NCBI GenBank assembly: GCA_021234155.1
Contig: JAJEKV010000027.1
Coordinates: 62,001-126,000, forward strand
Length of the DNA: 64,000 nt
Reading direction: 5' to 3'
From: Isoetes taiwanensis
Taxonomy: Eukaryota; Streptophyta; Lycopodiopsida; Isoetales; Isoetaceae
Part shown: positions 3,941 through 64,000 of the stretch, one piece after another
How positions within the stretch are numbered: position 1 is the first letter of the stretch
How the letters are laid out: every line of letters starts with the position of its first letter
Made by a program: the position numbers and the translations under genes
The notes under the pieces: generated by a model
Database searches by the model: none
What the model was told of the DNA's origin: nothing
What the model saw: the letters and a program-made list of their open reading frames with translations, nothing else

Positions 3941-3944
3941 GTCC

Positions 3945-17574: not shown

Positions 17575-18587
17575 ATGGATTCTGTTGCTGCTAATGGTAC
17601 GCTTACTCAAAGTGATTGGCATATGTTGCCACGTTTTAGTGGTAACAATTTTCAAATGTGGAAATGGCGAATGCAGATGATATTAGAAGATAAGCAAGTT
17701 TGGGATGTTGTGTCTGCTGATATTACAACATCCACCATTGCATCTGTATCTTCTGTATCTTCTGATCCTGACTCTGAGGCACCAAATGCGGTGCCTGTGT
17801 CCGTGTCTGCTCCAAAGTCTGATCTCTTGGAGAAAGACCGTAAGGCAAGACTTGTTATTTGTGCAAGTCTTGATGATACACCAGCTTGTCTGGTTAAAGG
17901 AGCTCGAACTGCAAATGAGATGTGGCAAGTTCTGCTCAAACATTATGAATCTCAGAATGCTGGGAATCGTTTGGCATATCTTCAAGAAGGGGGAGATGTC
18001 ATGAAGCATATCTGCACCATGAAGGAGCTGATTGATGATTTATGTGCTACTGGGTCTACTATCACAGAAGATGAAAAAGTCTGCATTCTATTGAATAGCC
18101 TTCCAAAAACTTTTGAAGGCCTTGTCATCAATCTTGAAGGGCGTCTTGCAGATTACACATTTGAATCTGCTATGGAGCGGGTCAAGAATGAAGCTTTACG
18201 TCAAGATCAGGGCACTGACTCAAAGTCCTCTGATACTTTAATGATTGCTGATCTCAGGGTCACTCCTATGAAGGATTCAGTCAAGAAAGATTCTCCAAAG
18301 AAAGGCAAGTTTGACCGAAATAAGGTTACTTGTTACAGATGTCAGAAGAATGGGCATCTTGCCCGGGATTGTCGTGCACCTGCACCCATACCCAAAGGGG
18401 AGACAGCATCACCTGCAATAGAGGAAGCAAGTCCAGTAATTGAAGAAGAACAAGATGAAACTCATGATTATCTGTTTTCTGTCATTGCAGATTCTGATGT
18501 AAAGCAACATGATTATTTCTGGTACATTGACTCTGGAGCAACATCTCATATGACTCCTTATCAAGAGTCACTCTGCAATCTCCACGA
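17575..18587 (+). CDS. Copia gag and start of protease
   Basis: The frame starts with ATG (MDSVAANGTLTQ). It holds a typical copia gag: GNNFQMWKWRMQ near residue 25, VLLKHYESQ, and ILLNSLPKTFEGLV. A CCHC zinc knuckle (CYRCQKNGHLARDC) lies near residues 253-266, for RNA binding in the virus-like particle. The protease catalytic motif WYIDSGATSHM lies near residue 319. The frame runs on to a stop at 18678, but its sense ends near 18585. There the expected protease continuation (RMGDNRHQNAVG...) switches to the next frame. The last 90 bases of this frame therefore overlap pol without being meaningful. Confidence 0.9.
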
Positions 18588-21641: not shown

Positions 21642-21650
21642 TCTATATTC

Positions 21651-21659
21651 GAGTGGGGG
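21651..21659 (+). other. Copia polypurine tract
   Basis: GAGTGGGGG lies immediately before the 3' LTR and is the expected primer site for plus-strand DNA synthesis. Confidence 0.85.
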
Positions 21660-21905
21660 TGTGAGAAATCATAACGAATATAGGTCTAATTAAGTTTAAC
21701 TTCTATATTTGTCATCTTCTGATATTGTTAGTAGTGGCTATTTATGACTACAACAGTCACGATATTTCTGTTGTAAGCAGACTATAAAAGAACAAGTCTC
21801 GGATGCCAAAAAGCACCAAGCCATCCTGAGCATTTTGTACTCCGTTTTGTATTCAAAGATTCTTCTTGTGATCTGTTGCATACATCTCTATTTCAAATTC
21901 TCACA
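21660..21905 (+). repeat. Copia 3' LTR
   Basis: Same length (246 bp) and termini as the 5' LTR, with about 98% identity. It is followed by the GTTTA target duplication (21906-21910) and then by resumed PPR coding sequence. Confidence 0.95.
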
Positions 21906-21910
21906 GTTTA

Positions 21911-23500
21911 TGTCAAGATAGATTTTTAAGGAATCATCTAATAGAGATGTATGGCAAGTGTGGAGCTCTGGTAGAAGCTCGTGAGGTTTTCGAGAGCATG
22001 CATACCAGGAATACTTTTTCATGGAATATTATAATCATAGCATATGCCCGCATGGAATGATTGGCCAGCTAAACAGGTCTAAACAGATTCCTCACTGGGA
22101 CACTGCCCCTTACAATGCCATATGTCAACTTATACTAAACATGGTCGCTTGCAGGGAGCACTTGATATTTTTCTTAACATGCCTTAGAGGGATGTGATTT
22201 CTTGGGATTGTATGATTGTGGGATGTGCACAACATGGTCAAATAAAGGATGCCCTTCATATGTTTCAGCAAATGCCTCAAAAGCACATGGTATCTTCTAC
22301 TGTTATCTTGGAAGTGTATGTAGCTCGACGAAGCCTTGAGAATACTCCAGTGAGATACAACCTCCTCTTGTATGCGATGCAACATGGAAAATGAAATGAA
22401 GGACTCCGTCTCTTTCAAAACATGCCTTGTCAAGATGTAGTTGCTTGGAATGCAATAATTTCAGTATGTGCCTAACAGGGATTCAACAAGGAAACCCTTA
22501 CCTATTCCAGAAAATGCCCCAACGAGATGTGGTCTCATGGAATGCCATGATCACAATATGTGATCGGCATCGCCTATTGCAGGAAGCTTCCCAATTGTTT
22601 AACAGTATGCCTATGATCTCTTGGAATACAATGCTTTCACTTTATTTGCTACAAGGGAAATGGCAACTAGCCCTTGAATCGTTTCACCAAATCGGAGAAA
22701 AACCTTGTTTCATGGAATATGACGCTTGCCGCTTAGGCACAGCTGGGTCAGTTTGATTTTGCACAGCAGTTCCTTGAGAAAATGCCAGATCATGATACTG
22801 TTTCATGGAATATCATGCGTTCAGCATATGCTCAGCAAGGGCATGTTGTTGCAGCTTCTTCTTCATTTTAAGTGATGCCTCAACATGATCTTGTATTCTG
22901 GAATACAATGATTAAAGCTTATGGTGAGAAGCAGCTCCTAAAGGAAGCCTTCATGCGCGTTCAAAAAATGCCTGACAAGATTACCTATCTCAATATTATC
23001 AATGTGAGCACTAGCTAGGCAGCTCTCCCAGAAGGTAAGCTAATACACACTTATGCACTGAAACGTGAATGTGAGTTAAACACAGTCATAGGTAGTGCAT
23101 TTGTCAATATGTAAGATAAACACAGTCATAGGTAGTGCAGTTGTTAATATGTATGCAAAATGTGGGAATTTGAATAATGCAAATGCAGAATACCAGATCG
23201 AGATGCAATATTATATATTAGTCAAGAGCATGCTCTTGTAGCAACATTGTAATAGTATGATTGACATTTCTTGGTCGTGCTGGACAGGTACATGCAGCTG
23301 AGGCTTTGATAAATGGCTTGCCAAGTTCTCCTGATTCGACTTCTTGAAGTTACTTCTTAGTTCATGCACAGACTGTTGCGATTTGAAAAGTGGAAAACGG
23401 ATTGCTGAACAGATGCTTAAGACATACCCTGAAAACTCTGCAGCATATGATATGCTTTCAAACATCTATGTTAAGAACCATCGGCTGCTGACTGAGAAAT
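21911..23500 (+). pseudogene. PPR protein gene, 3' part, heavily decayed
   Basis: The segment starts with LIEMYGKCGALVEAREVFESM and runs through a chain of PPR motifs in changing frames. Examples are RDVISWDCMIVGCAQHG, LFQKMPQRDVVSWNAMI, LEKMPDHDTVSWNIM and MPQHDLVFWNTMIKAYG. It ends in an E-like motif (IAEQMLKTYPENSAAYDMLSNIY) near 23400-23470. Frequent -VSWN- and -MP-RD- signatures are those of PLS-class editing-factor PPRs. Many frameshifts and stops show that decay is older or faster than that of the copia element inside it. No DYW deaminase domain follows. Confidence 0.8.
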
Positions 23501-26835: not shown

Positions 26836-27055
<220 letters not shown>

Positions 27056-36505: not shown

Positions 36506-36663
36506 TGTAACGTTCCTAACTGACATGCCCTTAACCAACTGGGCAAAATCGTCTAGACGTTTATGAGTAGTCGCTTCTACCCATTTATGCTGGTGTCTCG
36601 GGAACGCCCCACAGGCACATTCAAGGTTCGAATACTCGAGCGGTCTACCATGGGCCCGTTACA
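36506..36663 (-). repeat. Right 158-bp terminal repeat (inverted)
   Basis: Reverse complement of the left terminal repeat with about four transitions. It is followed by ACACA and resumed HAK coding sequence. Confidence 0.9.
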
Positions 36664-36668
36664 ACACA

Positions 36669-37274
36669 GAGTTAGCGCAAGGAATTCCAAGCATCTTCCA
36701 ACACTTCATCACAAATCTTCCTGCAATGCATTCTGTGCTTGTGTCTGTAGCTGTAAAGCATTTACCCATTAGCAACGTTTTACCCGAGTTCTGCCTCTTC
36801 GCGCGGGATCGAACAAGAGATTTTCGTCTTTACAGGTGTGTTGTGAGGTATGGATACAGGGACATACATGAAGAAAAAGACATGCTTCCTTTCGAAGAAT
36901 TACTGTTGGACACTCTTGCAAAATTTATTAAATATGAAGACGGTAGTCTTCCTCTTCCGGAGGAGGAAACCTGTGATTTGGACTCAAAGAGCTTAAATGT
37001 GTATCCATCAAACACAATGCCCGGGCCACAAGTTTCCGAGGTTCAATTGAATGATAATAATGAATCTGTGGAGGATGAATTGACGTTTCTAGGGAAATCT
37101 AAGGAGGCAGGTGTTACTTATCTTCTTGGACAGGCAGAGTTAATTGCAAAGCCAAACTCTGGAATTCTTAGCAAGATCGTTATTAATCACCTGTATGCAT
37201 TTTTGCATAAGAATTGTAAAGATAGTACTACGAGTTTAGGCATTCCAAATCAAGTGGGCACAAGGAAGCAATAA
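36669..37274 (+). pseudogene. HAK/KUP/KT potassium transporter, C-terminal exon
   Basis: The reading resumes as ELAQGIPSIFQHFITNLPAM, then VAVKHLPISNVLPEFCLFA, RDFRLYRCVVRYGYRDI, and near the end VTYLLGQAELIAKPNSG and KIVINHLYAFLHKNC. These are the soluble C-terminal blocks of plant HAK/KUP transporters in the right order. The frame is open for about 200 codons. The extreme C-terminus (IPNQVGTRKQ) departs from the usual ...VGMTYEV, perhaps through a small indel. Continuity with 32070-33411 across the inserted element is clear. Confidence 0.9.
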
Positions 37275-37746: not shown

Positions 37747-38946
37747 TCAAAATTTTAACTGATGCAACGGGGGACAAAGCCCTATAACGATAATGTAACA
37801 TTTAAAGCACCACCTTAAATGTCGCTTAATGTGTTAGTGCCAACATCCAACAAAATGCCAATGATAAATACTAGGTCCCAAATGGGCAAATATGCAGGAA
37901 ATCGATCAATAATCAAAATAAAATGCGACACCAGACAACATAGCAAAAAAAAAAAAACCTCTTGGCCAGAGAAAATTCGATGCCAGCAAAATACGTCATG
38001 CAAAAATAAAAGAACCTGTAAATAAACATAAACAGTTGCTATCCGCACACTAGAGTTAAGTTTTGCAAGAAAAAGACAGCAAATTAACCATATGCTAAAA
38101 CATGGCCGCAAATCTAAAGTTTAAAGCTAACCAAGTGTAGAATGACATGGTGTAAATGTGGAAATTCCCAAATGAATGCAAGAAAAAGCTAAATGCCTAG
38201 AAGAAGATAACCGAGAGTGAAGAAGAAAAAGTAAAGAAGCAGAAACTTGAACCCAGATCCACAAATTGAAAGGCTAGAACCTTAACCAGAAGAGCACCAT
38301 ACAACTACAAAATGAAAACATTGATCCTATAGAACATATGCCTATAGTTCCCAGCCTTCCTATCAACGATGTCTACAATGCTCTACAGCCGCTCCGCGGT
38401 TACAAATGAAACCCCAAATGTGCAATTTGGGCAAAATCCAGTTCAACTAATATGACTTTAGCATTGGCAATCGACAAAACTTGTGAAGCTTGCAACATTT
38501 GTAGCTTGGATGTAAATGTAAGGTAGAGGGTAGGCTACATGAATAAATACTGGACGTAAAAATAAGGTTAAGGGTAGGGTAAATTGTGCTTAGACTCGGT
38601 GTAAAAGTATGGAATCGGGTATTATGCTTCGACAACACAAGACTGTATACATAGGGGTTTCTATAGGAGCCGTATACATAGGGGTTTCTCCCGACCTGAT
38701 GCATGCACATGCCATATGCCCCTAACATAGAGGTGAACCCCCCGGGGTGTCGTCTTGCTGACTTTTTAGGTAATGTCATGTTGACACTATATACAGAGCA
38801 TGGCTATGGAGCCAAGGCTCTTCAGCTTTAGCATGAGGTGTATTTAGATAGATAAGTACATTCACCCCTTTTGGGAAATGAACATGTGGGCTCTCTAGTT
38901 GAATCTCCTCTTCAAGTTGTCTTAAAATATCAATGCAAGGCAAAAC
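37747..38946. other. Intergenic with a tRNA-like sequence and small repeats
   Basis: No supported gene. GTATACATAGGGGTTTCT occurs twice at about 38646-38687. The tRNA-like sequence is listed separately. Confidence 0.4.
38242..38310 (-). repeat. tRNA-like sequence (SINE head or tRNA pseudogene)
   Basis: On the minus strand an A-box-like TCTGGTTAAGG is followed, about 35 bases later, by a B box GGGTTCAAGTTTC. The order and spacing are those of a tRNA-derived pol III promoter. No cloverleaf with a paired acceptor stem was found. Confidence 0.45.
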
Positions 38947-38969
38947 TTACCTTCCATTATCTCTTTAGC

Positions 38970-39302
38970 TTAAGCAATGTCTTTTTGCATATGAATAGAA
39001 GCTAACTCATTCTGAATAGTTGTTGGTTTCTCACTAGCAGTAGGTGTGTCATAGTAATTAAGCTTGTTCTGCACTGGAGAAGACATATCAGTCTCAGCGT
39101 TTTGGACATCAACACTATCCAGATCGTCGTCACTTGCCGTCATATCAGCTATTTTCTCTGCAATAAAGAAATATGGTTCAACAAACCGTGATTGATTACA
39201 ATCATTACCTGTTGTATATGTAGGTTTGATGTCTGCATGTTCAGATGCTACTGGCTTTTGTAAACCTGCATTATGTACAACATGATGCATGACTTGCATC
39301 AT
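38970..39302 (-). pseudogene. Unrecognised exon remnant, copy 1
   Basis: The minus-strand frame carries EKIADMTASDDDLDSVDVQN and then ASEKPTTIQNELASIHMQ, acidic and Ser/Thr-rich. A related copy lies at 61021-61242. Just downstream on the minus strand KTLLKLEEIMEG would follow in another frame before a GTAAGT-type donor seen in copy 2. The parent gene was not recognised. Confidence 0.4.
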
Positions 39303-40095
39303 ATATATTTGAAGTCCCTATACTTTGACCCCTTTTAACTTTTTTTGTAGACAACTTTTAGCTCGAAGAAATTAACGTTCGAGTAGGGTACAACTTTAGG
39401 AAGCCGAATTTTGCAGCGATATTGTTCGCGGATTCTTCGTATTTTTCAATAAGGAGGAATTGTGCTCTTAAGTGTGCAAGACATGACAACCCTATCCTAG
39501 AAGAAGTAAAGGTCCATCAGTTTAGAAGATAGTATAGATGCTTTCCCTTCCTTGCGCATGCTGGATTTTCCTCATCCTCGTGTCCATTAACTAGCAATTG
39601 TTGTAAAGATATTGCAATATCAGAGGGAACAGTGATGTGCTGGCAATGCTGGAGTTAAATCACACAATATGTTTAAGTGAAGTATTTGGCATATTAATAG
39701 GGCTCTGACTAATAAATACAGCACCTTCTTGTAACATGATGGTTGCCCATAAACATCAGTTTATTGCATGTCACCAACACTCATGAAATGCCCACATTTT
39801 TTCTTAATAAGCTCGGGTTAATAACTGGCTCCCATCGGCGCATAAATTATATTGACCACACAATTTAGGCTATTAAATGGCATCCTAATTAGTGTTGATC
39901 TGAAATCAAGTAGCGGCATGCATTTATCAGGCTTCAAAACAAGACCAATAAACATAAACCAGCTATGATGCATTTTGAAGTCCTGACTTTTTCCTTAATG
40001 ACCTAGTCAAGTCGAATGATTCTCAATTGCAATAACCATGCTTAATTTAGTACAGCTTTATGAACAGTTTGTCATTTGTTCACCTTACAATTGAC

Positions 40096-40166
40096 AATGT
40101 TGACTTGAATCTGCACACAATGTTGACTTGAATCTGCACACAATGTTGACTTGAATCTGTGCAGTA
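40096..40166. repeat. 25-bp tandem repeat x 3
   Basis: AATGTTGACTTGAATCTG(C/T)(A/G)CA... occurs three times in a row. Copy 2 of the segmental duplication has only one unit at the matching place, so the array expanded or contracted after duplication. Confidence 0.8.
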
Positions 40167-44627: not shown

Positions 44628-44632
44628 CCTAG
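44628..44632. repeat. Target-site duplication of the gypsy element (left)
   Basis: CCTAG lies directly before the 5' LTR and again directly after the 3' LTR at 57663-57667. Confidence 0.93.
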
Positions 44633-46172
44633 TGTGACGCTCCAAACAAGATACCCCCCCGATCGCACATTGTAATCGCCACGCCACGCCGCACACGCCA
44701 CCCGATTGACGGTAACGCCAACGATAGCCGTAAGTAGCCCTAGGGGCAACTTGCTAGAGTGTTCATATATTATTAATGTGCACATGTGCACATTAATGAG
44801 GGCACACCTTCCATGTTGGCATATTTTTGCCACCTAGCCACTAAAGGCAAGTGGGGCCTTCCAATTATCCCACATGCCAAATTGGGTAATTGGAAACCCT
44901 AGCCTAAACCCCATGTCTATTTAGGGTAGGAAAACCCTAGCTTGCTAGTTTTTCGTCCTTAGGGTTTAGAGCTCGGGCTTTGGCTGCCCCTGTGAGCCAA
45001 AACCGCCCTCCCAGACGCTGCCTAGTTTAATTGGCGCCATCGGGCTTCCTTGACCAGCAAAACAGATGGTTGAACTCGCATCGAGGAGCCACTCAAGGAT
45101 CAGATTTGGTCAATTTAATAGCTTAAACCGCCTTCTAGTCATAGAATCAAGAGGTTTTAGACTATTAAATTGCCCATAGTAGTTATCTAGATCTTAGATC
45201 GACACCAACTAAAGAACCTAACTCTATGATTGATCTAGTTCTTTAGTTCTTCCGCGATATATTTTGGATGATGTATTTCGTGAACTCCTTGTATTGGGAA
45301 GGGGGTAGAGGCCCTAAAGCTTGTAGTTGATGCTCCTAGAGTAGCCTCTCTAGCACACCGTAGTTTCTACCCTGTGGTACAAGAGCCACACCGGGCCAGG
45401 GGTGAAGGGGCCGACCGCTAAAAAGGAGGTTCATGTCCCCGACTCTTGAACCATCCCCCTGGTGTGTAAAGCCTACCCGGGATCATTGTGACTAGGTCTA
45501 ATGGCTTACCACCGAAAAGTGCGGGTAAGGCATGGGCTCGACACCGCGAAGTGGTGTACACTTTCCGGGTTCAATAATACCTGCGCAAAGGCCCTCTAGT
45601 CACCTTGAGTTAGCATGCGATCTCCCGAGGGAGTGATCCCTACCGCCCCATCTGGAACCCGGGAGGATGAGACCCAGTGAATAGCCCCTTCGGCTATGCA
45701 TCCGGGCGGCTACGTCCCAACACTTTTCACCTACTACGCAAAGTGTGCATGGAGGGGCGGATGGAGTGGACAACCCTATGCCATGTTCTTATGCCAGCCA
45801 AATCCATTGCCATGAATTCGGCTCCGAATGAACTCGGAGACCCAAGCCGCCGTCATCCTTTGAGTCTCGAAGCCTGGGTAGGATCCCCTATGTGATGTGC
45901 CGATCTTTGTCTATGCAGATATGAGGGGACCATCCTTCGAGATGGTCACAGGATGTTGATGTATGTGCTAACACATGTATGTTTACGCCCGCAGCCTAGG
46001 TAGGCCCCGAGGGAGACGGGGTAGAATGACACCTTCACTCTCCCCATCGGTGACTCGTTAGCACGGGGCAAAGCGGATATGTGGAGGGCCCTCAGACGCA
46101 TGGAGCTGGTGTGGGGAAGAACTCGCTTGTATACCTGCGAGTGCAATCGATAATAAAGTAGGGGACGCCACA
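44633..46172 (+). repeat. Gypsy 5' LTR
   Basis: It starts TGTGACGCTCC and ends GGGGACGCCACA. It contains a 26-base perfect palindrome at 44772-44797 centred on CACATGTG. Two AAACCCTAG telo-box motifs lie near 44888 and 44931. A GCCCTAGGGGCAAC motif lies near 44738. All have counterparts in the 3' LTR. Confidence 0.93.
44772..44797. promoter_or_regulatory. 26-bp perfect palindrome in the LTR
   Basis: ATTAATGTGCACA is followed by its exact reverse complement. The same palindrome is intact at 56277-56302 in the other LTR although the surrounding sequence carries indels. Its position in the 5' part of the LTR fits a transcription factor site or a structural element. Confidence 0.6.
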
Positions 46173-46174
46173 GC

Positions 46175-46185
46175 TGGTATCGAGC
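46175..46185 (+). other. Gypsy primer binding site
   Basis: TGGTATCGAGC follows the 5' LTR after a two-base spacer. It matches the plant initiator-Met site TGGTATCAGAGC except for one missing base. Confidence 0.85.
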
Positions 46186-46375
46186 AATGTTCTTGGAGAC
46201 CAAGAGCAAAGCACCGACCATGTTCCCAAAGAGTACTAACTTGATAGGATCCTCAAGCCCCAAAAGTGGGAAAAAATTTTTCTCACCTTTGTAGTTATGC
46301 TAAGCTAGTAACAATTAAGTGAATTGGAATTTAACAAGATTAAAAAAGAACGAGCCAAAATTTTCCAGTGAGGTG

Positions 46376-46438
46376 GTCTCCATTTCGCGCCGCGAAAAAC
46401 TAACTTTTTGTTTTGAAGCGAGGCTAAAGCTATGAGAC
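46376..46438. repeat. Hairpin repeat 1 (before the H3-like ORF)
   Basis: GTCTCCAT ... ATGAGAC arms flank CGCGCCGCGAAAAACTAAC and GAAGCGAGGC. It is a worn relative of the best hairpin at 48411-48477. Confidence 0.55.
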
Positions 46439-46561
46439 ATCGAGCCAAGAACACCAAAAACATGATGAATTTGAGATAAATAATGTGGTAAGGCTAATTC
46501 TAAGGTAGGAATTAGTTAGAATAGCATGTTTTAATTACCTAAAACCCTAGAATGTATGATT

Positions 46562-46627
46562 CACGATACCGCTACCGGTCGAAAACTAAACATTAGTATT
46601 GGAACGAGGCGCAAGTCGTGGGAGACC
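46562..46627. repeat. Hairpin repeat 2 (before the H3-like ORF)
   Basis: A CACGAT arm pairs with GTCGTG. The loop side again holds AAAACTAA, and the right arm holds CGAGGCGCAAG followed by GGGAGACC. Same family as the other three hairpins. Confidence 0.5.
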
Positions 46628-46730
46628 AATGGGTAGAAAAAGTCTGAAATAAGTATAAGTTTTAGATAAATTGGTGCCTTAGCATGTTAAACAGAAAGCA
46701 ACTTGAGTTTTGACCTAAAATTCCCCAAGC

Positions 46731-46740
46731 TATAAATAGA
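46731..46740 (+). promoter_or_regulatory. TATA box before the H3-like ORF
   Basis: TATAAATAGA is a consensus plant TATA box 110 bases before the ATG of the H3-like ORF. An identical TATAAATAGA stands before gag at 48666-48675. This suggests separate internal promoters for the two reading frames. Confidence 0.5.
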
Positions 46741-46840: not shown

Positions 46841-48076
46841 ATGGCCCGAACCAAACAGGATCGCCTTAAAGCGCCGCCGCCAGCGAAACCACCACCCGAC
46901 CAGACGAGATCATTCGAAGATGCTTCGGAGAGGCTCGCAGGGGGTCGCTCGCCCTGGACGAAGAGCAAGACACCTCCGATTTGATCGATGTCTTCAACCG
47001 CCAGTGGAGGGAGGACGAGGCCACATCTCCAAACTCCATGGACGACGGCAGACGAGGGAGGTGTATGAGGAGATAGAGAGGGAGATCCGGCAGCTAGGAA
47101 CAAGCGTACTATCTGGGACGCGACCCACGGAAATCCTCGAAAGCGTGATGAGCAAGTGACCGGTCCGGGAGCCACCGAGGTAGCGCAATCTTTAGAAGAT
47201 TCATCGAAGTACGAAAATGGCAGAAGAGAAGGGAAGACAAAAAGAGGAAAAGGGAGGAAGAGGAACAAAAGGCGCAGAAGAAAAGAAGAAAAAGAAAGGG
47301 AAGTTCGTGGTCGCATAAGGAGAACGGTTGGACCGCCCACGAGGAAGAGGCCAAACCCAAATATTATCATTAAGGAGCGGCAACTGACGAACCCCCAAAC
47401 CCTTCCGACGACTCTTCCGATGAAGACTTCAACCCTAACGGGCCGCAGGTGGAAGCCTTCCAAGCACCCAGCGACGAAGCAGAAGTACCGAGCAGCCGGC
47501 ACCGAAGCAACCCCACCAAGACCAAGTGTAAGCCCCCAAATACCCGCATGGGATAGAAAGAAGAACCACTTACCGCCCCGAAGCCCACGCCACCGCACGT
47601 GGTGAAGATTTATGAGAGGAAGATGAGAGAGCACGAGGCCTACATGAAGAAATGGGAGGCCTATAACAAATATTATGAGGAAAACAGGGTTAAGTTCATC
47701 GAGGGAGGGCGACCAACGGCAAAGAAACCCTAAGGCCGCCACCACCGAAGCCCCAAGGTTCCCAAGCCGCCACCCGTGAAGAAAGCGGATAGGAAGGAGG
47801 TGGAGAGAAGAGCGTTAAGGGAGATTAGACACTTCCAAATAGCAGCTCGGTCTCCTAATCCCAGGTGGCCCCTTCTCGGTTTGGTGCGTGAAGTTATGCA
47901 GGCCTATAGAACAGACTTTAGAGTCACGCATTTAGGCGCAATGCAAGAGGCGGTTGAGGCAAAGATAGTGCAACATTTTGAAGATTCAACAGCCGCACTA
48001 TCCACGCTTTAAGCGGGTAACCTTAATGCGACAAGACATGAGTCTTGCGACCCGCATTAAGGGAGAACGCCCTTAG
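46841..48076 (+). pseudogene. Histone H3-like ORF inside the gypsy element (H3 tail, long linker, H3 fold)
   Basis: The ATG at 46841 starts MARTKQDRLK; the first six residues equal the histone H3 N-terminus, including Lys4. The middle (about 46900-47760) is proline-rich, then strongly basic (KKRRKRKGK), then acidic (NPSDDSSDEDFNP), then a charged helical segment (YERKMREHEAYMKKWEAYN). The C-terminal part (47776-48076) aligns with the H3 fold. ALREIRHFQ is alpha-N, LVREVMQAYRTDFR is alpha-1 plus loop 1, AMQEAVEAKIVQHFED is alpha-2, and KRVTLMRQD...TRIKGERP plus stop is loop 2 and alpha-3. The spacing from REIR to LVRE equals that of H3; loop 1/alpha-2 is about two residues shorter. EIRHFQ and RVTLMR recall CENH3, while LVRE and GER recall canonical H3. 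Total length is about 410 codons against 136 for H3. Frame changes in the linker, a TAA at 47731 and one frameshift near 47994 disable this copy. Confidence 0.85.
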
Positions 48077-48224
48077 AAACTTTTGTTGTAAATAATTAAA
48101 AATTTTGTAATATAGAGCAATTTTGTCTACTTTGATGACATAAACTTGAGTAATTAGAGCAAATTAATAAGTTTTAGCTTTTATTTCAAAGAAATAGGAC
48201 ATTTGGGGAGCCGAGAGACATGAT
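48077..48224. other. 3' flank of the H3-like ORF
   Basis: AT-rich sequence (TTGTAAATAATTAAAAATT near 48085-48105) resembling a plant 3' untranslated region or polyadenylation region. It has no long poly-A run as a retrocopied gene would leave. Confidence 0.35.
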
Positions 48225-48284
48225 GTTCACATTTCGCGCCGTCGCAAAACAAAAGTTAGGATTGAAGCGAGGCGAAGTCGAGAC
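48225..48284. repeat. Hairpin repeat 3 (after the H3-like ORF)
   Basis: TTCGCGCCGTCGCAAAACAA, then AAGTTAGGATTGAAGCGAGG, then CGAAGTCGAGACC. It is very similar in sequence to hairpin 4, with a weaker outer stem. Confidence 0.65.
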
Positions 48285-48410
48285 CTCCAAACTTGACCAA
48301 AACAGCTCAAATTGACCAAATAAGGGTCGATTCTGCCTAATTTGGTGAGCCCATCACCCTTACACCATTAGTTTACCCAAATTGACACCTTTAATCGAAA
48401 TGGGACTGAT

Positions 48411-48477
48411 GTCTCACAGCTCGCGCCTCGTCGCAAAACAAAAAGTTAGGATTGAAGCGAGGCGCAAGCTGTGAGAC
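48411..48477. repeat. Hairpin repeat 4 (after the H3-like ORF), best preserved
   Basis: GTCTCACAGCT (48411-48421) pairs perfectly with AGCTGTGAGAC (48467-48477). Inside it CGCCTCG (48424-48430) pairs with CGAGGCG (48458-48464). The loop contains GCAAAACAAAAAGTTAGG. Two further related hairpins lie on the other side of the H3-like ORF. Confidence 0.8.
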
Positions 48478-48665
48478 CTCTTACCAATTCTTCACCAGGA
48501 CTTGTCAAAGTCACCTTCAACCTACTGCATAGCATCTTTTAGGTAACCTAGCCTTGTTCAAGCATCTCCTATAGTCCTCAAACTCCTATTTTGACCTCAG
48601 ATAAGTTAGAATTACCCAATCCTAGGAAATTTCCAAGTCATCCAAAATTAGGGTTTCCCCTTTTC

Positions 48666-48675
48666 TATAAATAGA
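48666..48675 (+). promoter_or_regulatory. TATA box before gag
   Basis: TATAAATAGA lies 128 bases before the first ATG of the gag region (48794). It is identical to the TATA box in front of the H3-like ORF. Confidence 0.45.
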
Positions 48676-52230: not shown

Positions 52231-52549
52231 CATGCGCAGTATGTCTTCTAAACGGCTGCTCAAGTGCATCAAGAGTGAGCGGTAGCATACATCTTCAAGC
52301 TTGAGATTAGTGAGCCGAATTGGAAGGAAGCAAAGAAGACAAGATGCTCGCCAAGTTGCCGAGGCAAATAGCTAAGTTGATCACGGGAGTTCCACGATCT
52401 CTTTCCGATGAGATCAAGCAGCCCCTCCTTATAGGGGAGTCGAGTGCGAGATAGCACTTTCAACCGAACACAAACCGACAAGCAAGGCTCCATATAGAAT
52501 GACAACGCCAGAGTTGTCCGGAGCTAAAGAAGCAGGGCCGCTTTCGACC

Positions 52550-53180
52550 TAGGTTTCATTAGACCTAGTGTCTCGCCGCTTGGAGGCGCCCATTCTTTTT
52601 TGTCAAGAAGAAGGATGGATCTTTGAGAATGTGCATAGACTATAGACAGTTGAATAAGCACACCATTAAGAACAAGTATGCGCTTCCAAGATCGGACGAC
52701 TTAATGGATCAGCTTCAAGGAGCAAAGATCTTCTCCAAAAATCGACTTTAAGGTCAGGTTATCATCGATCACGGATAAAGGAGGAGGATATCCACAAGAC
52801 GCCTTCGTGACGCTGTATGGGCATTATGAGTTCACGCGATGCCTTTAAACATCAAATGCCCCCTTAACGTTCATGAGGCTCATGAACCGATATCTTCGAG
52901 GAGTTCCCGGACACCTTTGTGATTGTTTTCTTTGATGACATTTTGGTGTATAGCGATCCCTTGAAGAGCACGCGGCAACACTTGGAGAAGGGTGCTAGAG
53001 AAGTTGAGGAGGCACCGCCAAATCAAGTTGTCGGCGCCACCGCAAACGTAGAAGGTGGAATACCCCTTGGTCATGTGATCTCGGCGCAGTATCTCGACCC
53101 TTCCCGCCAAGATTGAAGCAGCTGATTCAAAGGGCGGTCGTACCAAGAATGTGCACGAGGTCGGTTTTCTGGCCTAGCAG
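52550..53180 (+). pseudogene. Gypsy reverse transcriptase, decayed
   Basis: [20 protein letters not shown] near 52590-52660 is the gypsy RT fingers motif, followed by [10 protein letters not shown]. The catalytic box is VIVFFDDILVYS at 52919-52955. Several frameshifts separate these pieces, and part of the palm around motif B is scrambled. Confidence 0.85.
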
Positions 53181-53249
53181 GGTACTACAGAAGTTCGGGT
53201 GGAAGAACTTTTGCTAAGATAGCAGCCCCGCTAACGCACCGGACGAGGG

Positions 53250-53700
53250 CGCAGAAGGTGAAAGATTGGGTAGAGCATTGGCACAAGAAAGCCCAAAAGG
53301 GATTTGAATTGTTGAAGGAAGCTTTAACAACAGCCCCATCCTTAACCCGCCGGACCTCGAGAAAGATAAGCTTGTAGCAACGGATGCAGTAAGATAGCTA
53401 CAAAAAGCGCGGCTTATGCAAGAAGAGCGCGGTGGTAGCGATGATTCCGTGAAGATGAACGACGCCGAGACGCCGCTACCCAACGCCGCGATCGAATTGC
53501 TTGCGGTTGTCGTATGCTAAGAATATGGAGGCACTACCTCTTGGGAAGGAAGTTCCAATTGGATACCCACCATCGAGCCTCCAATATGTATTCACGCGAA
53601 CCACACCTCAACTGAGGCAAATTTGAGATGGATGGAGTTCCTCGAGGAATACGACTTTTGATATAGTCTACAAGCCGTGGAAACTCAATGTGGTAGCAGA
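53250..53700 (+). pseudogene. Gypsy RNase H region, decayed
   Basis: Fragments such as FELLKEALTTAPSL, then a block near 53380, end at VVADALSRHPRQL (53686-53720). That last motif is the conserved end of the RNase H/connection region in gypsy elements. The segment between is too frameshifted to show all catalytic acids. Confidence 0.65.
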
Positions 53701-53879
53701 TGCGCTTTCAAGGCATCCCCGACAACTAGAGTGCATTGCAACGCAATTTCGACGCCTCCAAATTTTGGTAAGAGGATTGAAGAGTCCTTGCCAACGGATG
53801 TGGGATTTCGGGAAGTATGGGCAAGCCTCTCTAAGGAGGCTAGAACAGATAAAGAGCCGGGAGGCCTTCAAGCATTATA

Positions 53880-54800
53880 AGAAGGAAGGCAACCCGTTAT
53901 ACCATAAGAACAAGTTGTCGCGCACCAATCATCGGTGTAAGGAAGTTGATCCTCCATGACACGCGACAAATGTTCCCCAATAGCCGGCCATCGCGGATTC
54001 ATGAAAACATATTTCAAAGTCTTGCAAAGCAGCTATTATTGGCCGTGAATGAAGAAGCAAATAGCTTCGCTACATCAAGGAATGTCGCCTATGCCGAGCG
54101 AAGAAGGCAGAAAGTGCTTCGAATTCCAGGGGGCATTAGAGCCATTAGCAATGCCAAATGCTAAGTGGGAGGTAATCAGCATGGATTTCATCACGACTCC
54201 CAAGAACGGCGAGAGGCAAGGATGCCTTGATGGTAGTGGTCGACAAGTTGTCAAAGATGGCACATTTTGTGCCTTGCGGGATACGATCTGACTATGGATA
54301 CAAAAAAGCTCTTCACCAAAGAGATCTTCGAGCTTCATGGCATGCCAAGGGAGATTATCTCCGGCAATGAGATCCGGTTCATGAGTGCCTTTGGCAAGAC
54401 CTCTTTATGCGACAATTCGCACCAAGCTATCCATGAGCACGGCGTATCATCCTCGAGACGGATGGCGGGCGGAGCGGACCAACGATCTTAGAAGACATGC
54501 TACCAAAACTATGTCCGGAATAAGCAAAGTATGTGGGAAGAATTTATTCACTTGGTGGAGTTTGCATACAATAGCACCAAGCAGAATCGTCCCCAAATGT
54601 CGCCATTTATGATCAATTATGGCTATCGGTGCCTAACTCGCATTACTTTGGCACAACCCCGTGTCAAAAGTAGAAGTTTCGCCAGCCAGATGTTACCGAT
54701 ATCATGGCAGCTTCGTGGAAGAGGTTCGAGGGTATCCGCTAGCGCAAGAAGAAGTCGACAAAAAGAGCATCGCCGATAAGCATCGAATCCGTAAGAGAGT
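53880..54800 (+). pseudogene. Gypsy integrase, decayed
   Basis: Recognisable pieces are CRAKKA (zinc-finger region) and [10 protein letters not shown], where the core Asp is seen. Next come [17 protein letters not shown] and [20 protein letters not shown]. The last usually reads IISDRDPRF, so the second catalytic Asp appears changed. FIHLVEFAYNSTKQNRP near 54540-54590 carries the end of the core. Frames change repeatedly. Confidence 0.8.
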
Positions 54801-55073
54801 TCAAAGTTGGAGATGATGTATGGCTCAAGATAAAGGTGAAGCGGTGGCTCGGATTGGCAATTGCAAGAAGCTTGCTCCAAGGTGGGCTGGACCCTTGAGA
54901 ATAATCAAGAGAGTAGGTAATCAATCCTACAAGTTAGAATTGCCAAAGACACCTAAAGATTCATAAGGTCTTCCACGTGAGTTTGTTGAAGAAGCATACT
55001 CCAAATCCGCATCGTTTTGGACACTCAACGCTGTTGAAATGATCGGAGGAAGCAACTGGAAATAGTTCCGTAA

Positions 55074-55295
55074 ATGATTCTTGATAAAGCTTTCAAGAAG
55101 ACAAGGAGGCCTGAGTTCCTCCAATACTTGGTCAAGTGGAAACACTTGCCGATGGAAGACGCTTCGTGGGTACTTAAGAAGGATTTGGTAAAGCAAGCAC
55201 TACGCTTTATGGAGCAATGGGACGGCAAGGTCATCTCCCAAGAAATCGGCTCGTGCATGTCGATTTTGGCGAGGGCTAATTCTTGTATAGATTAA
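55074..55295 (+). pseudogene. Gypsy C-terminal chromodomain
   Basis: ILDKAFKKTRRPEFLQYLVK, then WKHLPMEDASWV and KKDLVKQ fit the chromodomain of chromovirus integrases: an aromatic-lined fold of the LVKWxxLPxxxxSWE type. Upstream, near 54962-54990, the usual HKVFHVSLLKKH linker is present. Chromodomains of this class can bind methylated H3 tails and guide insertion. Confidence 0.8.
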
Positions 55296-56124
55296 TCTCC
55301 ACGATGCAACCTATGCTTGGTATGGGTCGCATGCTTGTTATCGATGATGAGACCACTACGGTGATCTCTAGGGCGGGTGTAATGTCAATGTAGGCATGAC
55401 CGCTTTCCGCTTAGGCGAGTGGAAGGTAGATTAGAAAGTCTACTTCTGTCCCACCCTAAGGAGACGGCCTCCGAGAAAAGAGGTCATTAAGGAATGCATT
55501 GATAGGGAAAGCACCTTTAGCCCCATATATGCTTTGATAGGAGGAATCCATCCTTCACGCGCCCCACGCCGAGAAGGATATCCTCCACCGGCAACTAGAG
55601 GTGTAGGCATGAGCGCATATAGGCATATAGGGGTGCTGTCTCCCGGCCATTATGGAAGATTCATCCTCTTCCTACGCCGGGAGATTAGCCATGCATTCAT
55701 GTAGATAGGTGGGGTGGTCACCATATAACCAAAATTTATTAAACAATTAAAACGGTACTAACGTAGTGTCGACCAAGCAGCCGAGAGCCCCCAGGGCAAG
55801 GAGGTCGAAGAGCTAAAGACTTGCAACACAAGTTTTGTTGGAATGTGTTGCAAGGAATGAAAGAGTACCTCTGACAAGAATTATAGATATGAAATGCTGA
55901 AATTTTGTCTAACTTAACATAGTGAATAACTTGTTAATGGTGTTATGAATTGATAAGTATTCCATAATATAATAACGTAATAATGTTCTAAAAGTAATTA
56001 CCTTAGAGTAATCGCGATAAATGTATAAAGATTATATTGTAGGTATCACGTTGATTGCGTGTGCGCGTGTTAGGAAGATCCCAAGGTGGGGGAGACCCAC
56101 GATGCCGCTGACGAAGATCATTTC
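55296..56124 (+). other. Gypsy 3' untranslated region
   Basis: No coding character was seen between the chromodomain and the polypurine tract. A CCGGGAG/CTCCCGG pair near 55641 and 55677 could form a hairpin. Confidence 0.5.
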
Positions 56125-56137
56125 AAGGTGGGGAGAA
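56125..56137 (+). other. Gypsy polypurine tract
   Basis: AAGGTGGGGAGAA directly precedes the 3' LTR. Confidence 0.9.
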
Positions 56138-57662
56138 TGTGACGCTCCGGCCGATATACCCGTCAGACGTACATTGTACCGCCATCGCCACGCGCCACGC
56201 CACCCGATTGACGGTAATGCCAACGGATAGCCGTGTAAGTAGCCCTAGGGGCAACTTGCTAGAGTGTTCATATATTATTAATGTGCACATGTGCACATTA
56301 ATGAGGGCACACCTTTCCATGTTGGCATATTTTGCCACCTAGCCACTAAAGGCAAGTGGGGCCTTTCCAATTATCCCACATGCCAAATTGGGTAATTGGA
56401 AACCCTAGCCTAAACCCCATGTCTATTTAGGGTAGGAAAACCCTAGCTTGCTAGTTTTTCGCCCCTTAGGGTTTTAGAGCTCAGTTTTGGCTGCCCCTGA
56501 GCCAAAACCCAGCCCGACGACGCCGCCCACTTAGTTTCATCTGCCCGATCATCACAGCAGATGGTTGAACTTCAGATCGGAGGAGCCACCAAGGATCAGG
56601 TATTTGGTCAATTTAATAGCTTAAACCGCCTTCTAGTCATAGAATCAAGAGGGTTTAGACTATTAAATTGCCCATAGTAGTTATCTAGATCTTAGATCTC
56701 GACACTAACTAAAGAACCTAACTCTATGATTGGATCTAGTTCTTTAGTTCTTCGTGATATATTTGGATGATGTATTTACGCGGAACTCCTTGTATTGGGA
56801 AGGGGGTAGAGGCCCCAAAGCTTGTAGTTGATGCTCCTAGAGTAGCCTCTCTAGCACACCGTAGTTTCGCCTTTGTGTACAAGAGCCACACCGGGTTGTG
56901 GGTGAAGGGCCGACCGGGCTAAAAGGAGGTTCATGTCCCGACTCTTGAACGATCCCCCGGTGTGTAAAGCCTACCGGGGATCATTGTGACTAGGTCTAAT
57001 GGCTTACCACCGAAAGTGCGGGTAAGGCATGGGCTCGACACCCCGTGAAGTGGTGTACACTTTCCAAAGGTTCACCGAATACGCAAAGGCCCTCTAGTCA
57101 CCTTTGAGTTAGCATGCAGATCTCCTGAGGGAGTGATCCCTACCGCCCCATCGGAACTGGGAGGATGAGACCGGTGAATAGCCCCTTCGGCTATGCATCC
57201 GGCTGGCTATCGGTCCCAACACTTTTCAGCCTACTCAAGCAGTGTGCACGAGGGGGCGGATGGAGTGGACAACCCTATGCCATGTTCTTATGCCGCCAAA
57301 TCCATTGCCATGAATTCCATGCACCTAACGAACTCGAGACCCAAGCCGCCACCATCCTTTGAGTCTCCCTTGGGTAGGATCCCCTATGTGATGTGGGCCG
57401 ATCTTTGTCTATGCAGATATGAGGGGACCATCCTTCGAGATGGTCACGGGATGTTGATGTATGTGCTCTTGACATGTATGTTTACGCCCCAGCCTAGGTA
57501 GGCCCCGAGGGAGACGGGGTAGAATGACACCTTCACTCTCCCCACCGAGACTTCGTTCGGGGCGCGATATGTGGAGGGCCCCAGTATCATGGAGCTGGTG
57601 TGGGGGAAGAACTCTGTTTGTATCACGGTGAGTGCACCGTATACGAGTAGGGGGACGCCACA
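56138..57662 (+). repeat. Gypsy 3' LTR
   Basis: It starts TGTGACGCTCC and ends GGGGGACGCCACA, followed by CCTAG. It matches the 5' LTR along its full length with many short indels. The 26-base palindrome (56277-56302) and AAACCCTAG motifs are conserved. Confidence 0.93.
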
Positions 57663-57667
57663 CCTAG

Positions 57668-60638: not shown

Positions 60639-61242
60639 TCAGTTCCTCATGCTCGGCTTCATCATCAATTTTTTCAAAACATGTATCTGCATTAAACTGC
60701 TACTGTGGAATTTATCCCATTCGTGCGTAGTGCTGTGGATTTCGTTCTGACCAGGATTAGCAATATTGGCAATTAAGTTATCAAGATGAGCATCTATTAC
60801 TGAAGTTTTTTTGTTGGATTCCCCTCCATCTGCTAGTTTTTTTGCCTTCGCTGTGAGAATAGGTGAAATGCTTATCCAAAAATTCAAAAAGAAAAAAAGA
60901 AAATGGCATGAAATAAATTACTTACCTTCCATTATCTCTTCTAGCTTAAGCAATGTCTTTCTGCATATGAATAGAAAATGGCATGAAATAAATTACTTAC
61001 CTTCCATTATCTCTTCTAGCTTAAGCAATGTCTTTCTGCATATGAATAGAAGCTAACTCATTCTGAATAGTTGTTGCTTTCTCACTAGCAGTAGGTGTAT
61101 CATAGTAATTAAGCTCGTCCTGCACTGGAGAAGACGTATCAGTCTCAGCGTTTTGGACATCAACACTATCCAAATCGTCGTCACTTGCCGTCATATCAGC
61201 TATCTTCTCTGCAATAAAGAAATATGGTTCAACTATATGCAC
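60639..61242 (-). pseudogene. Unrecognised two-exon remnant, copy 2 of the 38.97-kb fragment
   Basis: The upstream exon (61242-61021) carries EKIADMTASDDDLDSVDVQN and then ASEKATTIQNELASIH, as in copy 1. KTLLKLEEIMEG before a GTAAGT donor (near 60996) lies in another frame. The second piece (60887-60639) reads ISPILTAKAKKLADGGESNK and SVIDAHLDNLIANI and ends PSMRN plus stop. The donor and 5' part are tandemly duplicated at 60898-61047. No family was recognised. Confidence 0.4.
60898..61047. repeat. 75-bp tandem duplication
   Basis: AGAAAATGGCATGAAATAAA...CTGCATATGAAT occurs at 60898-60972 and again at 60973-61047. It duplicates the splice donor of the minus-strand exon. Copy 1 of the segmental duplication has a single unit. 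Confidence 0.85.
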
Positions 61243-61590
61243 CTGACAAACCGTGATTGATTACAATCATTACCTGTTATATATGTAGGTTTGATGTCTG
61301 CGTGTTCAGATGCTACTGGCTTTTGTAAGCCTGCATTATGTACAACATGATGCATGACTTGCATCATATATATTTGAAGTCCCTATAATTTGACCCCTTT
61401 TAACTTTTTTTGTAGACAACTTTTAGCTCGAAGAAATTAACGTTCGAGTAGGGTACAACTTTAGGAAGCCGAATTTTGCGGCGATATTGTTTGCGGATTC
61501 GTATTTTTTAATAAGGGGGAATCGTCCTCTTAAGTGTGCAAGACATGACAACCCTATCCTAGAAGAAGTAAAGTTCCATCAGTTCAGAAG

Positions 61591-61625
61591 GAAGGAAGGA
61601 AGGAAGGAAGGAAGGAAGGAAGGAA
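61591..61625. repeat. GAAG/GGAA microsatellite
   Basis: About nine GGAA units lie at one end of the insertion in copy 2. On the minus strand they are CTTCC repeats at the 3' end of the inserted piece, like the simple-sequence tail of a LINE. Confidence 0.9.
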
Positions 61626-62163
61626 GTATATTTTAACGTCCACGGAGGCCAACTGGCCTATGAGACAATGATACAATATAGCGGAAAGTTTCCAAACACA
61701 AAAGAAAACCACAGAAACCCTGTACAATGTGTCTCTACCACCGGGATGAAAAAAACCCCCATGTGGGAGGAAAAACCCCTTGTAGTAGCGCTCGAGAGGC
61801 CCTATCCGGCGCCAAATTCCCTCGTTGTGAGGGACTCTCGGCGGTGGAGACTTGCGTAAATGTAGGATGCGAGGCGTGCAACCATTGGCCGAAGCCGGCA
61901 GCTTGATGAATTGCTATCTCGAGCATCCGAGATCGGCATGAGCCGCTTTCGGATGTGTGCATATCTTTGGGCATTCCCTCGTAGAGCATGGTGTTCATCT
62001 TCTACTATTCCGCATGTGACAACACCGTATAATCTCATGCCGGGATTCCCCGCCTCCATCCGTACCCCCAAATTGTCTCAATTAAGATGGTGGGACCACG
62101 TCCCTTATTGCATATAGCTCTCCTCGCTTCTTGGTAGAGATGTGTGCCTTCAAATACTGGTGG
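61591..62163 (-). mobile_element. LINE-like 3' fragment inserted in copy 2
   Basis: The insertion is absent from copy 1, which shows the empty site. On the minus strand CGIVEDEHHALRG then QRYAHIRKRLM resembles the zinc-ribbon end of LINE reverse transcriptases (C...EDE-H...C..Y..IR). The minus-strand 3' end is a simple repeat. A target duplication of about four bases (AAG/GAAG) is hard to separate from the repeat. This looks like a second, 5'-truncated LINE unrelated to the one at 25.3 kb. Confidence 0.5.
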
Positions 62164-62797
62164 AAGATAGTATAGATGCTTTCCCTTCCTTGCACATGCT
62201 GGATTTTCCTCATCCTCGTGTTCATTAACTAGCAATTGTTGTAAAGATATTGCAATATCAGAGGGAACATTGATGTGCTGGCAATGCTGGAGTTAAATCA
62301 CACAATATGTTTAAGTGAAGTATTTGGCATATTAATAGGGCTCTGACTAATAAATACAGCTTCTTCTTGTAACATGATGGTTGCCCATAAACATCAGTTT
62401 ATTGATGTCACCAACACCCATGAAATGCCCACATTTTTTCTTAGTAAGCTCGGGTTAATAACGGGCTCCCATCGGTGCATAAATTATATTGACCACACAA
62501 TTTAGGCTATTAAATGGCATCCTAATTAGTGTTGATCTCGAAATCAAGTAGTGACATGCAGTGGTTTATCAGGCTTCAAAACAAGACCAGTAAACATAAA
62601 CCAGATATGATGCATTTTGAAGTCCTGTACTTTTCCCTTAACCACCTATTCAAGCCGAATGATTCTCAATTGCAATAACCATGCTTAATTTAGTACAGCT
62701 TTATGAACAGTTTGTCATTTGTTCACCTTACAATTGACTATTCAATGTTGACTTGAATCTGTGCAGTATGAGTGACTTTGTGATACCCATTTTACAG

Positions 62798-64000
62798 TCA
62801 TACTGTCATGACTTTGCGCACCTGCATACAGTTCCACGCATCTGCTCCAGCATAGACATTGGACATCGCTATGTATGCTGTGATGCTGTAAGGATCCAAT
62901 TCAAGGACATTGCATGCAGCACGTCCAGCTACATCCTTAATGCCATGAATTTGACAAGCACTAAGTAAACTTGTCCATTCAACAATATCAGGTAAAAATA
63001 GTAGATTGCTTATCAAATCCTCCACCTCATGTACAAGACCCATTCGACCAAGCAGATCGATTAGGCATCCATAATGCTCCCCCATAGGAGTAACGCCATA
63101 AGTATTACTTAGAGAAGTAAAGTAATAAAGACCCTCGTCCAAAAAGCCCCCATGATTACATCCACAAAGAAAGCTTACAAATGTGATCTCGTCAGGTCTT
63201 GTGCCAAGTTCAAGCATAGCTTGTAAGATATCTGGAACTTCCTTCCCATGACCATGTTTCGCATATGCATCGATCAAACTATTCCAAGAAACCTTATTTT
63301 TTTCCATCAATTTTTCAAAAGCATTAGATGCCTCATTTAAACTTCCACATTTCCCATACATATTCACAAGAGCGTTCCCTACAGTGACATCTGATTCAAA
63401 TCCGGCTTCATGAATATAAACACATAACAATCTTCCCTCTGCAAGTGTTGCACATACATCCAGTGCTGTAGCAAGAGATATATTATCTGGCTTCAACCCT
63501 TCCCTTTGCATCTCATGGAAAAGCATCATTGCCTGCTTCCCACATCCACATTGACTGTACGCAGCAATTATTGCATTCCATGAAATCAGATTTCGGTCTG
63601 ATATGTCATCAAATGCATTACATGCACATTCTAGACATTCACACTTTCCATACATATTGACAAGTGCAGTCCCGACAGCCACATCTGAAGCGAGAGCTGC
63701 CTCAAGAATGTCAACATGGATGGACTTGGCTTTTATCAGAGCTGAAGGGGTGCAGCATGCAGTGAGAGCGATGATGAAGGTAATTTTCTCCGGTTTTACA
63801 TCTTCTACCACCATTTGTTGAAAGAGTTTCAGGGAATTACTTTCTTGGCCATGTAGCACATATGTTGCAAGCATAGCATTCCATGAGACAACATCTCGTT
63901 CATGCATGCTTTCAAAAATAACTTCTGCATCTTTCACACTTCCGCATTTCCCATACATGTTGATGAGTGCATTTCCCACAAGAACATCAGTTTCAAGTTC
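62798..64000 (-). CDS. PPR protein, PLS class, partial (N-terminus beyond the window)
   Basis: About 400 codons are open from the window edge to a TGA at 62798-62800. Repeats follow in order: VGNALINMYGKCGSVKDAEV, VVSWNAMLATYVLHG, KPEKITFIIALTACC, VAVGTALVNMYGKC, NLISWNAIIAAYSQCG, KPDNISLATALDVCATL, VTVGNALVNMYGKCGSLNEA, KVSWNSLIDAYAKHG, RPDEITFVSFLCGCNHGG. The E-type end is MGEHYGCLIDLLGRMG, VEWTSLLSACQIHG, ITAYIAMSNVYAG. Such proteins bind organelle RNA, often for C-to-U editing. The frame stops soon after the E motif without E+ or DYW domains, next to the boundary of the duplicated segment, so the 3' end may have been cut off. A shortening lies in the CATLAEGRLLCVYIHEAGF repeat. Confidence 0.9.
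   Translation of the reverse strand, partial: ELETDVLVGNALINMYGKCGSVKDAEVIFESMHERDVVSWNAMLATYVLHGQESNSLKLFQQMVVEDVKPEKITFIIALTACCTPSALIKAKSIHVDILEAALASDVAVGTALVNMYGKCECLECACNAFDDISDRNLISWNAIIAAYSQCGCGKQAMMLFHEMQREGLKPDNISLATALDVCATLAEGRLLCVYIHEAGFESDVTVGNALVNMYGKCGSLNEASNAFEKLMEKNKVSWNSLIDAYAKHGHGKEVPDILQAMLELGTRPDEITFVSFLCGCNHGGFLDEGLYYFTSLSNTYGVTPMGEHYGCLIDLLGRMGLVHEVEDLISNLLFLPDIVEWTSLLSACQIHGIKDVAGRAACNVLELDPYSITAYIAMSNVYAGADAWNCMQVRKVMTV

Follow-up and report, generated by a model that had tools for sequence, protein, structure and literature searches.

Introduction

Histone H3 is a protein that plants use to wrap their DNA, and core histones are normally host property. Mobile elements that multiply an H3-like gene have been described in fungi, where H3L genes are borne by hAT elements in Pyrenophora tritici-repentis (PMC3538342) and in Pseudocercospora fijiensis and others (PMC6710886). 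According to the available text of these papers, the carriers are DNA transposons with terminal inverted repeats, and the H3L copies are either near-identical (PMC3538342) or captured host H3 genes inactivated by RIP (PMC6710886). In orchids, Ty3/gypsy elements carry an ORF for an AlkB m6A demethylase, a captured host gene that has likewise become a conserved extra ORF and perhaps acts against host surveillance; in the available text the captured gene is an RNA demethylase and not a core histone (PMC9289625). In its screen of 121 angiosperm genomes the same study detected 15 extra domains; neither of the two mentions of 'histone' in the main text as available refers to a detected domain (PMC9289625). 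The plant chromoviruses CRM, Tekay, Reina, Galadriel and Tcn1 have the LTRs, tRNA primer site, gag-pol order and integrase-end chromodomain that we describe below, and the available text of their descriptions reports no histone ORF (PMC6317226, PMC2864245, PMC3350952).

Here we analyse a window of 64,000 nucleotides from Isoetes taiwanensis (contig JAJEKV010000027.1), a species for which the main text of the genome paper, as available, nowhere uses the term 'histone' (PMC8566536). Among the literature matches listed in our searches, which cover few subscription papers and no bioRxiv preprints, none describes an LTR retrotransposon with a histone ORF in its title or the opening of its abstract.

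Results

A chromovirus carries a broken H3-like ORF behind its primer site

The initial annotation of the window had recognised a Ty3/gypsy chromovirus, and our analysis bears this out, with LTR pair, target-site duplication, primer site, pol region and chromodomain all present. The element lies on the forward strand between two copies of the 5-bp duplication CCTAG (44628–44632 and 57663–57667). Its 5' LTR (44633–46172, 1540 bp, TG...CA) pairs with the 3' LTR (56138–57662, 1525 bp) at 88.3% identity, and is followed by a primer-binding site, TGGTATCGAGCA (46175–46186), which begins TGGTATC and which we take to be of the initiator-Met type. A decayed pol region from reverse transcriptase to integrase (52395–55179) was aligned to six other H3-bearing elements; its pieces have no Pfam match in a Pfam search except the chromodomain at the integrase C-terminus (55074–55292, PF00385, 8.8e-9). 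The polypurine tract AGGTGGGGAGAA (56120–56137) stands directly before the 3' LTR. Since the pol DNA is only 66–70% identical to that of each of the six other elements, the window element is a relative of these and not a copy of the same family.

Between the primer site and the rest of the element lies an H3-like ORF, ORF1 (46841–48076, forward strand), that is broken in this copy. It opens with MARTKQ (46841–46858), the N-terminus of canonical H3, missed in the first reading and shared with host H3, and continues through a lysine/glutamate-rich part and an acidic part to the H3 body. The linker, with basic and acidic residues, occupies one frame with two stops (47152–47730) and matches no Pfam family above cut-off. 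The body itself, from the VKK region through helix 2 (47734–48009), matches PF00125 as a 92-aa frame piece at 2.7e-6 (3.1e-6 for 47740–48011), and a 78-aa part of it finds 157 distinct PDB sequences at E <= 0.1, of which the best 60 are all H3 types (top E value 1.2e-9). The C-terminus, KRVTLM...GERP with its stop, is read in a different frame (48011–48076); its 21 residues match the last 17 positions of the Histone model (0.0057, below the model cut-off), and tblastn gives 65% over 20 aa.

The H3 motifs first claimed for this ORF are thus all present and in order, the REIR-to-LVRE interval aligns to H3 without a gap, and the stop coincides with the end of H3. Chance similarity is ruled out by shuffling: against each of six H3/CENH3 reference sequences, all 1000 shuffles of either piece scored below the true piece. 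The proposal of an extra ORF related to H3 between primer site and gag is confirmed, with the caveat that the ORF is not open in the window copy, where reading it uses all three forward frames and passes several stops. Constraint tests on this copy alone were not significant (P = 0.15; 174 of 2000 neutral runs without a stop). The window element is a diverged, broken member of the H3-bearing elements whose ORF1 still begins MARTKQ.

The leader of ORF1 has a layout that recurs further downstream: ahead of the H3 ORF, and again ahead of the next ATG at about 48795, stand a pair of diverged quasi-palindromes and one TATA-like CTATAAATAG. The upstream set, all on the forward strand, comprises a quasi-palindrome containing TTTCGCGCC (46381–46441), a second unit (46562–46626) and the TATA-like site (46730–46739); the downstream set comprises a unit with the second TTTCGCGCC (48220–48286), one forming a strong hairpin (48408–48476, z -7.1) and the second TATA-like site (48665–48674). 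CTATAAATAG occurs twice in the window against 0.20 expected, with at least two occurrences in 3 of 100 shuffles, and the 9-mer TTTCGCGCC, presumably an E2F-type site, also occurs twice, once per leader. The pattern is not repeated in the leaders of five other copies, which together hold one TTTSSCGS match and two TATAAA[AT] matches. We regard these units and sites as no more than leads to possible separate transcripts.

Several other features share the window with the H3 element. A direct repeat, 94–95% identical, brackets it at 38945–40113 and 60995–62761, 22 kb apart, and may be either the LTR pair of an outer element or a gene flank present in duplicate. A Ty1/copia element at 17196–21912 has 253-bp LTRs that are 98% identical, and its open frames measure 390 and 1036 aa. 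Elsewhere there are a perfect (AAT)73 microsatellite (26837–27055), a piece of a potassium transporter gene (36567–37271; K_trans_C, 2.2e-17) adjoining a 162-bp inverted repeat, and, on the reverse strand, a PPR gene (62801–64000) whose best named matches are mostly from the lycophytes Diphasiastrum and Selaginella at about 36–46% identity.

Base-calling error probably inflates the apparent decay

According to the available text of its description, the assembly was built from Nanopore reads, polished with racon and pilon, and consists of 204 scaffolds plus 909 unplaced contigs that total 1658.30 Mb (PMC8566536). The two LTRs of the window element differ by 160 substitutions (84 transitions, 76 transversions) and 41 small indels, and 82% of the differences fall within 4 nt of a CpG, compared with 46% of columns. 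Enrichment of LTR differences near CpG was also found in all five other copies tested (L029–L038), making six of six with the window element; small indels are many in most of these six. Transitions and transversions are about equal in number in C928, C1034 and C1018, and transitions outnumber transversions in C1047 (35/25) and C985 (28/13). CpG depletion is weaker in the window element than across the whole window (observed/expected 0.68–0.91 vs 0.61). Because the differences cluster at CpG in an element that has kept more of its CpG, in an assembly based on Nanopore reads, they probably reflect base-calling error at methylated CpG, as does, probably, part of the breakage of ORF1 in the window. 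LTR ages and broken frames are therefore not to be trusted here.

H3-bearing elements recur in the Isoetes assembly

A Histone-family profile search of the assembly (1,658,258,908 bases, 1110 contigs) returned 8705 first-look candidates of unknown kind; 150 were scored, and all 150 were above the cut-off. The top 15 look canonical, covering Histone positions 2–122 in open frames of 139–232 aa, and each of the eight that were fetched proved to be canonical H3. The remaining 135 H3-like places include 55 with an open frame of at least 300 aa and 36 with at least 400 aa. Thirty of the 135 were examined, 20 picked by hand, mostly with long frames (L009–L028), and ten taken at roughly even steps along the list (L041–L050), all 30 having been selected for H3. 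A common N-terminal domain was detected at 28 of the 30, a known family LTR upstream at 23 (several stretches being too short to reach an LTR) and a second ORF, ORF2, downstream at 26. The probes were drawn from sampled copies, so that five of the 23 LTR matches are self-matches of a copy to the LTR taken from it; the probes for the N-terminal domain and ORF2 came from L009, L010 and L018. The ten even-step loci alone gave the N-terminal domain in eight, the LTR in seven and ORF2 in eight.

Both LTR and ORF2 are missing at two loci, L044 and L027. At L044, an H3 body and a tail-like stretch occur with no N-terminal domain, LTR or ORF2 nearby, and this locus is possibly a truncated copy or a host-side remnant. 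At L027, a 567-aa LINE-like reverse transcriptase frame (2799–4499, recognised by eye) lies just downstream of the H3 element copy.

The initial annotation had allowed for the case that no other copy carries the ORF. That case did not arise: relatives with an intact H3 ORF were found in the same genome, and these other ORF-bearing elements rule out a one-off insertion of a host H3 gene. We are thus nearly certain that Ty3/gypsy elements of this genome carry an H3 relative as ORF1. Beyond this assembly, one protein database search returned only a pair of Uranotaenia sequences and another returned none, negatives that are weak because the search engine requires shared 5-residue words. A relation to the Uranotaenia protein was rejected, as it is an H4-H3-H4 gene model when read by eye. 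In IMG/VR, 31 stretches fitted the search pattern and none was confirmed as a relative.

An LTR-length repeat lies upstream of the H3 ORF, and pol downstream of it, in all six longer contexts. Five of these have one clear LTR pair at 89.6–95.4% identity; the sixth, C101, contains three LTR-like repeats and looks rearranged. Perfect 5-bp target-site duplications flank the window element, C928, C1034 and C1018, with four of five bases agreeing in C985 and ambiguous ends in C1047. The complete domain order was established in C985 only, and reads LTR, primer site, ORF1 (H3), ORF2, gag, protease, reverse transcriptase, RNaseH, integrase, chromodomain, LTR. This copy has a 459-aa ORF1 frame (Histone, 8.9e-43), a gag with Ty3 capsid and zinc knuckle, and a chromodomain matched at 3.4e-8 (Pfam). 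The hallmarks of hAT elements, transposase and terminal inverted repeats, are replaced by LTRs and reverse transcriptase.

ORF2, between H3 and gag, was mapped at L039:3379–4827 (reverse strand) and L035:5544–6422; it is a single 483-aa frame in C101 and two frames in C985, with acidic stretches. It has no Pfam match at 0.1 in either copy, and the C101 frame has no PDB match at E 1. The window element has no recognisable ORF2, and its ORF1 has no clear N-terminal domain in common with the sampled copies.

ORF1 encodes a long-tailed H3 with a nucleosome-type body

Copies with an intact start encode about 417–459 aa. A lineage-specific N-terminal domain of ~230 residues comes first, then a charged linker and a tail-like stretch (KHPSTGGKS...), and the H3 body closes the protein. 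The linker is basic, rich in glutamine and glutamate, and predicted with low confidence to be helical. The histone fold that had been proposed is upheld by profile search, Pfam Histone being found both in the window piece and in other copies, which match at 8.9e-43 in Pfam and 7.6e-50 in PDB. By tblastn, the 30 loci examined are 64–88% identical to an Arabidopsis H3.3 over the matched stretch, the low values including the tail. Two AlphaFold2 models were poor (pLDDT 58.7 and 52.4; pTM 0.29 and 0.33), with no histone among the PDB matches listed for them.

Of 22 body residues checked in 18 full-body copies, 20 are kept in all 18, including R40, R49, R69, R72, R83, K115, R116, T118, C110, H113, D123 and L126; R63 is kept in 17 and K64 in three. 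We take these residues to be the ones that contact DNA, H4 and H3'. Two types of body are distinguishable, MPRFK in 15 of the 18 copies and METPK/MEEVK in three; positions 87 and 90 are F and L in the MPRFK type, and H and L in the METPK type, presumably as in Arabidopsis H3.3.

The N-terminal side is markedly different from H3. The sampled copies have an extension of ~340 residues in place of a short H3 tail, and none of the fetched loci L009–L050 starts with MARTK; the window copy begins MARTKQ. K36 is replaced by R in 20 of 20 copies, and no ARK[ST] occurs within 90 residues upstream in any of the 20, so that K9 and K27 have lost their standard contexts.

A phylogeny recommended with the initial annotation gave a divided answer, in that the element H3s form a weakly supported group of their own (aLRT 50, bootstrap 82) outside CENH3, but the window piece, on a very long branch, could not be placed. 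The window body piece scores 106–110 against H3 and 66–81 against CENH3/CENP-A. For the 35-aa C-terminal piece the scores are 66 (H3), 71 (rice CENH3) and 48–60 (the other three). Loop 1 is two residues shorter than in H3 in the window copy and of the same length as in H3 in the other copies. A CENH3 type was rejected on body scores, loop 1 and the tree, the short C-terminal piece alone being slightly better with rice CENH3.

The H3 body is the most constrained part of the protein

Purifying selection across copies, which the annotation had proposed as a check, proved strong among the other copies, with H3-body dN/dS medians of 0.035–0.046. For 18 copies, in which 93 of 153 pairs were usable (dS 0.05–1.5), the median was 0.046 and the maximum 0.16, at a median dN of 0.029 and a median dS of 0.71. 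Within eight intact MPRFK-type copies, the H3 body had the lowest median of the protein (0.035; 28 of 28 pairs usable), followed by the N-terminal domain (0.119; 20 usable pairs), the tail-like stretch (0.133; 23 usable pairs) and the linker (0.276; 14 usable pairs, one above 1). Picking copies by top Histone-HMM score biases these dN values downwards, and base errors in the assembly push dN the opposite way. Compared with two host H3 genes, the element copies differ at 55–71 of ~66 synonymous sites, at a dN of 0.10–0.14.

Judged from sequence, an LTR-retrotransposon lineage maintains a long-tailed H3 that is devoid of the standard silencing-mark sites, as the low H3-body dN/dS, the kept nucleosome residues and the K36R replacement indicate.

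Discussion

The body is the most constrained part of ORF1 and its nucleosome residues are kept, suggesting that ORF1 is most likely used as an H3. A mobile element may therefore supply part of its own chromatin. We propose that ORF1 is an element-encoded H3 variant that would pair with host H4 and be built into nucleosomes, with the greatest benefit on cDNA and new copies of the element itself. With its tail replaced by the long extension, and with the K4, K9, K27 and K36 contexts missing or changed in the sampled copies (as distinct from the window's), nucleosomes of this kind would be unable to receive the usual marks of silencing. Chromatin on its own DNA that escapes methylation at K9, K27 or K36 would be the most parsimonious gain for a retroelement. 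The N-terminal domain might decorate these nucleosomes as an element-specific tag, or tether other element proteins, and the element would in sum evade silencing or bring it under its own control. Taken as a whole, with identity and mechanism blended, this account is in our judgement about as apt to be right as wrong; its mechanistic part, an element-encoded nucleosomal H3 that escapes or controls silencing, is more tentative and falls somewhat short of even chances. The furthest-reaching version, in which the element loads its own mark-free H3 onto its own DNA and so creates a chromatin state that the host cannot methylate as usual, is doubtful. The initial annotation had offered chromatin marking, cDNA packaging and competition with host H3 or CENH3 as possible functions.

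An independent origin of the two H3 forms would be compatible with this proposal. The window subfamily, with MARTKQ and a different N-terminal part, and the main family could each have taken up H3 separately: they have no N-terminal domain or ORF2 in common, and the window H3 is no closer to the element H3s than to host H3. The H3 nevertheless sits at the same position in related elements, whose pol DNA is 66–70% identical, and we lean moderately against two captures while keeping them in serious consideration.

A different use of the nucleosomal protein would be as a beacon for integration, with ORF1 placed in host nucleosomes and its N-terminal domain docking the element's own pre-integration complex, together with the chromodomain, so as to choose insertion sites. 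The elements do bear a chromodomain, and the N-terminal domain fused to the nucleosomal protein is conserved (dN/dS 0.12); other chromodomain elements, however, manage without such a histone, and we consider this reading unlikely. Packaging is less probable still. ORF1 would then be a structural nucleoprotein of the virus-like particle whose H3 body, with or without H4, compacts RNA or cDNA, in keeping with its location upstream of gag in the same element and with its basic, glutamine/glutamate-rich linker, for which a helix is predicted at low confidence. The kept residues facing H4, H3' and DNA, in the roles we assume for them, exceed the needs of a generic basic packaging domain, and an ordinary gag with a zinc knuckle is already present.

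The near-complete H3 body, and the ARTKQ retained in the window copy, would also suit a decoy that sequesters host H4, chaperones of H3 or enzymes that modify histones, thereby weakening silencing in trans with no lasting deposition; decoys have no need of the DNA-contact residues, and we rate this quite improbable. Finally, a host H3 gene captured once and hitch-hiking with no use to the element, as might be suggested by fungal hAT elements that carry H3 copies, all captured copies in Pseudocercospora fijiensis being RIP-inactivated (PMC6710886, available text), is very improbable, since a neutral passenger is not expected to combine dN/dS of 0.035–0.046 (in copies chosen by histone score) with saturated synonymous divergence from host H3, and H3 has been kept by two diverged types.

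Should the element-encoded nucleosomal H3 be confirmed as long-kept and selected, a mobile element would possess a chromatin protein of its own, and the silencing conflict a new weapon. Element-made nucleosomes could then form a noticeable part of host chromatin, given the 135 scored places (30 examined) and the 8705 first-look candidates. The element H3 raises the testable question of whether an element can resist H3K9/K27 silencing by means of an H3 lacking these sites, and ORF1 offers a natural long-tailed H3 for nucleosome biochemistry. A practical warning also follows: in such genomes, element copies can swell the count of H3 genes and crowd H3 phylogenies.

Set beside known H3 proteins, the element H3 has the nucleosome residues of canonical plant H3 and differs from it in ~340 extra N-terminal residues, K36R and the lack of an ARKS/T motif, and over its body it is not like plant CENH3. 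Its carriers are LTR retrotransposons, in contrast to the DNA transposons that bear fungal H3L, and unlike the hAT-borne H3L it combines a long N-terminal fusion, synonymous saturation relative to host H3 and signs of selection. What seems new here, against the literature listed in our searches, is that the captured gene in an LTR element is a core histone, synonymously saturated relative to host H3 and apparently under selection.
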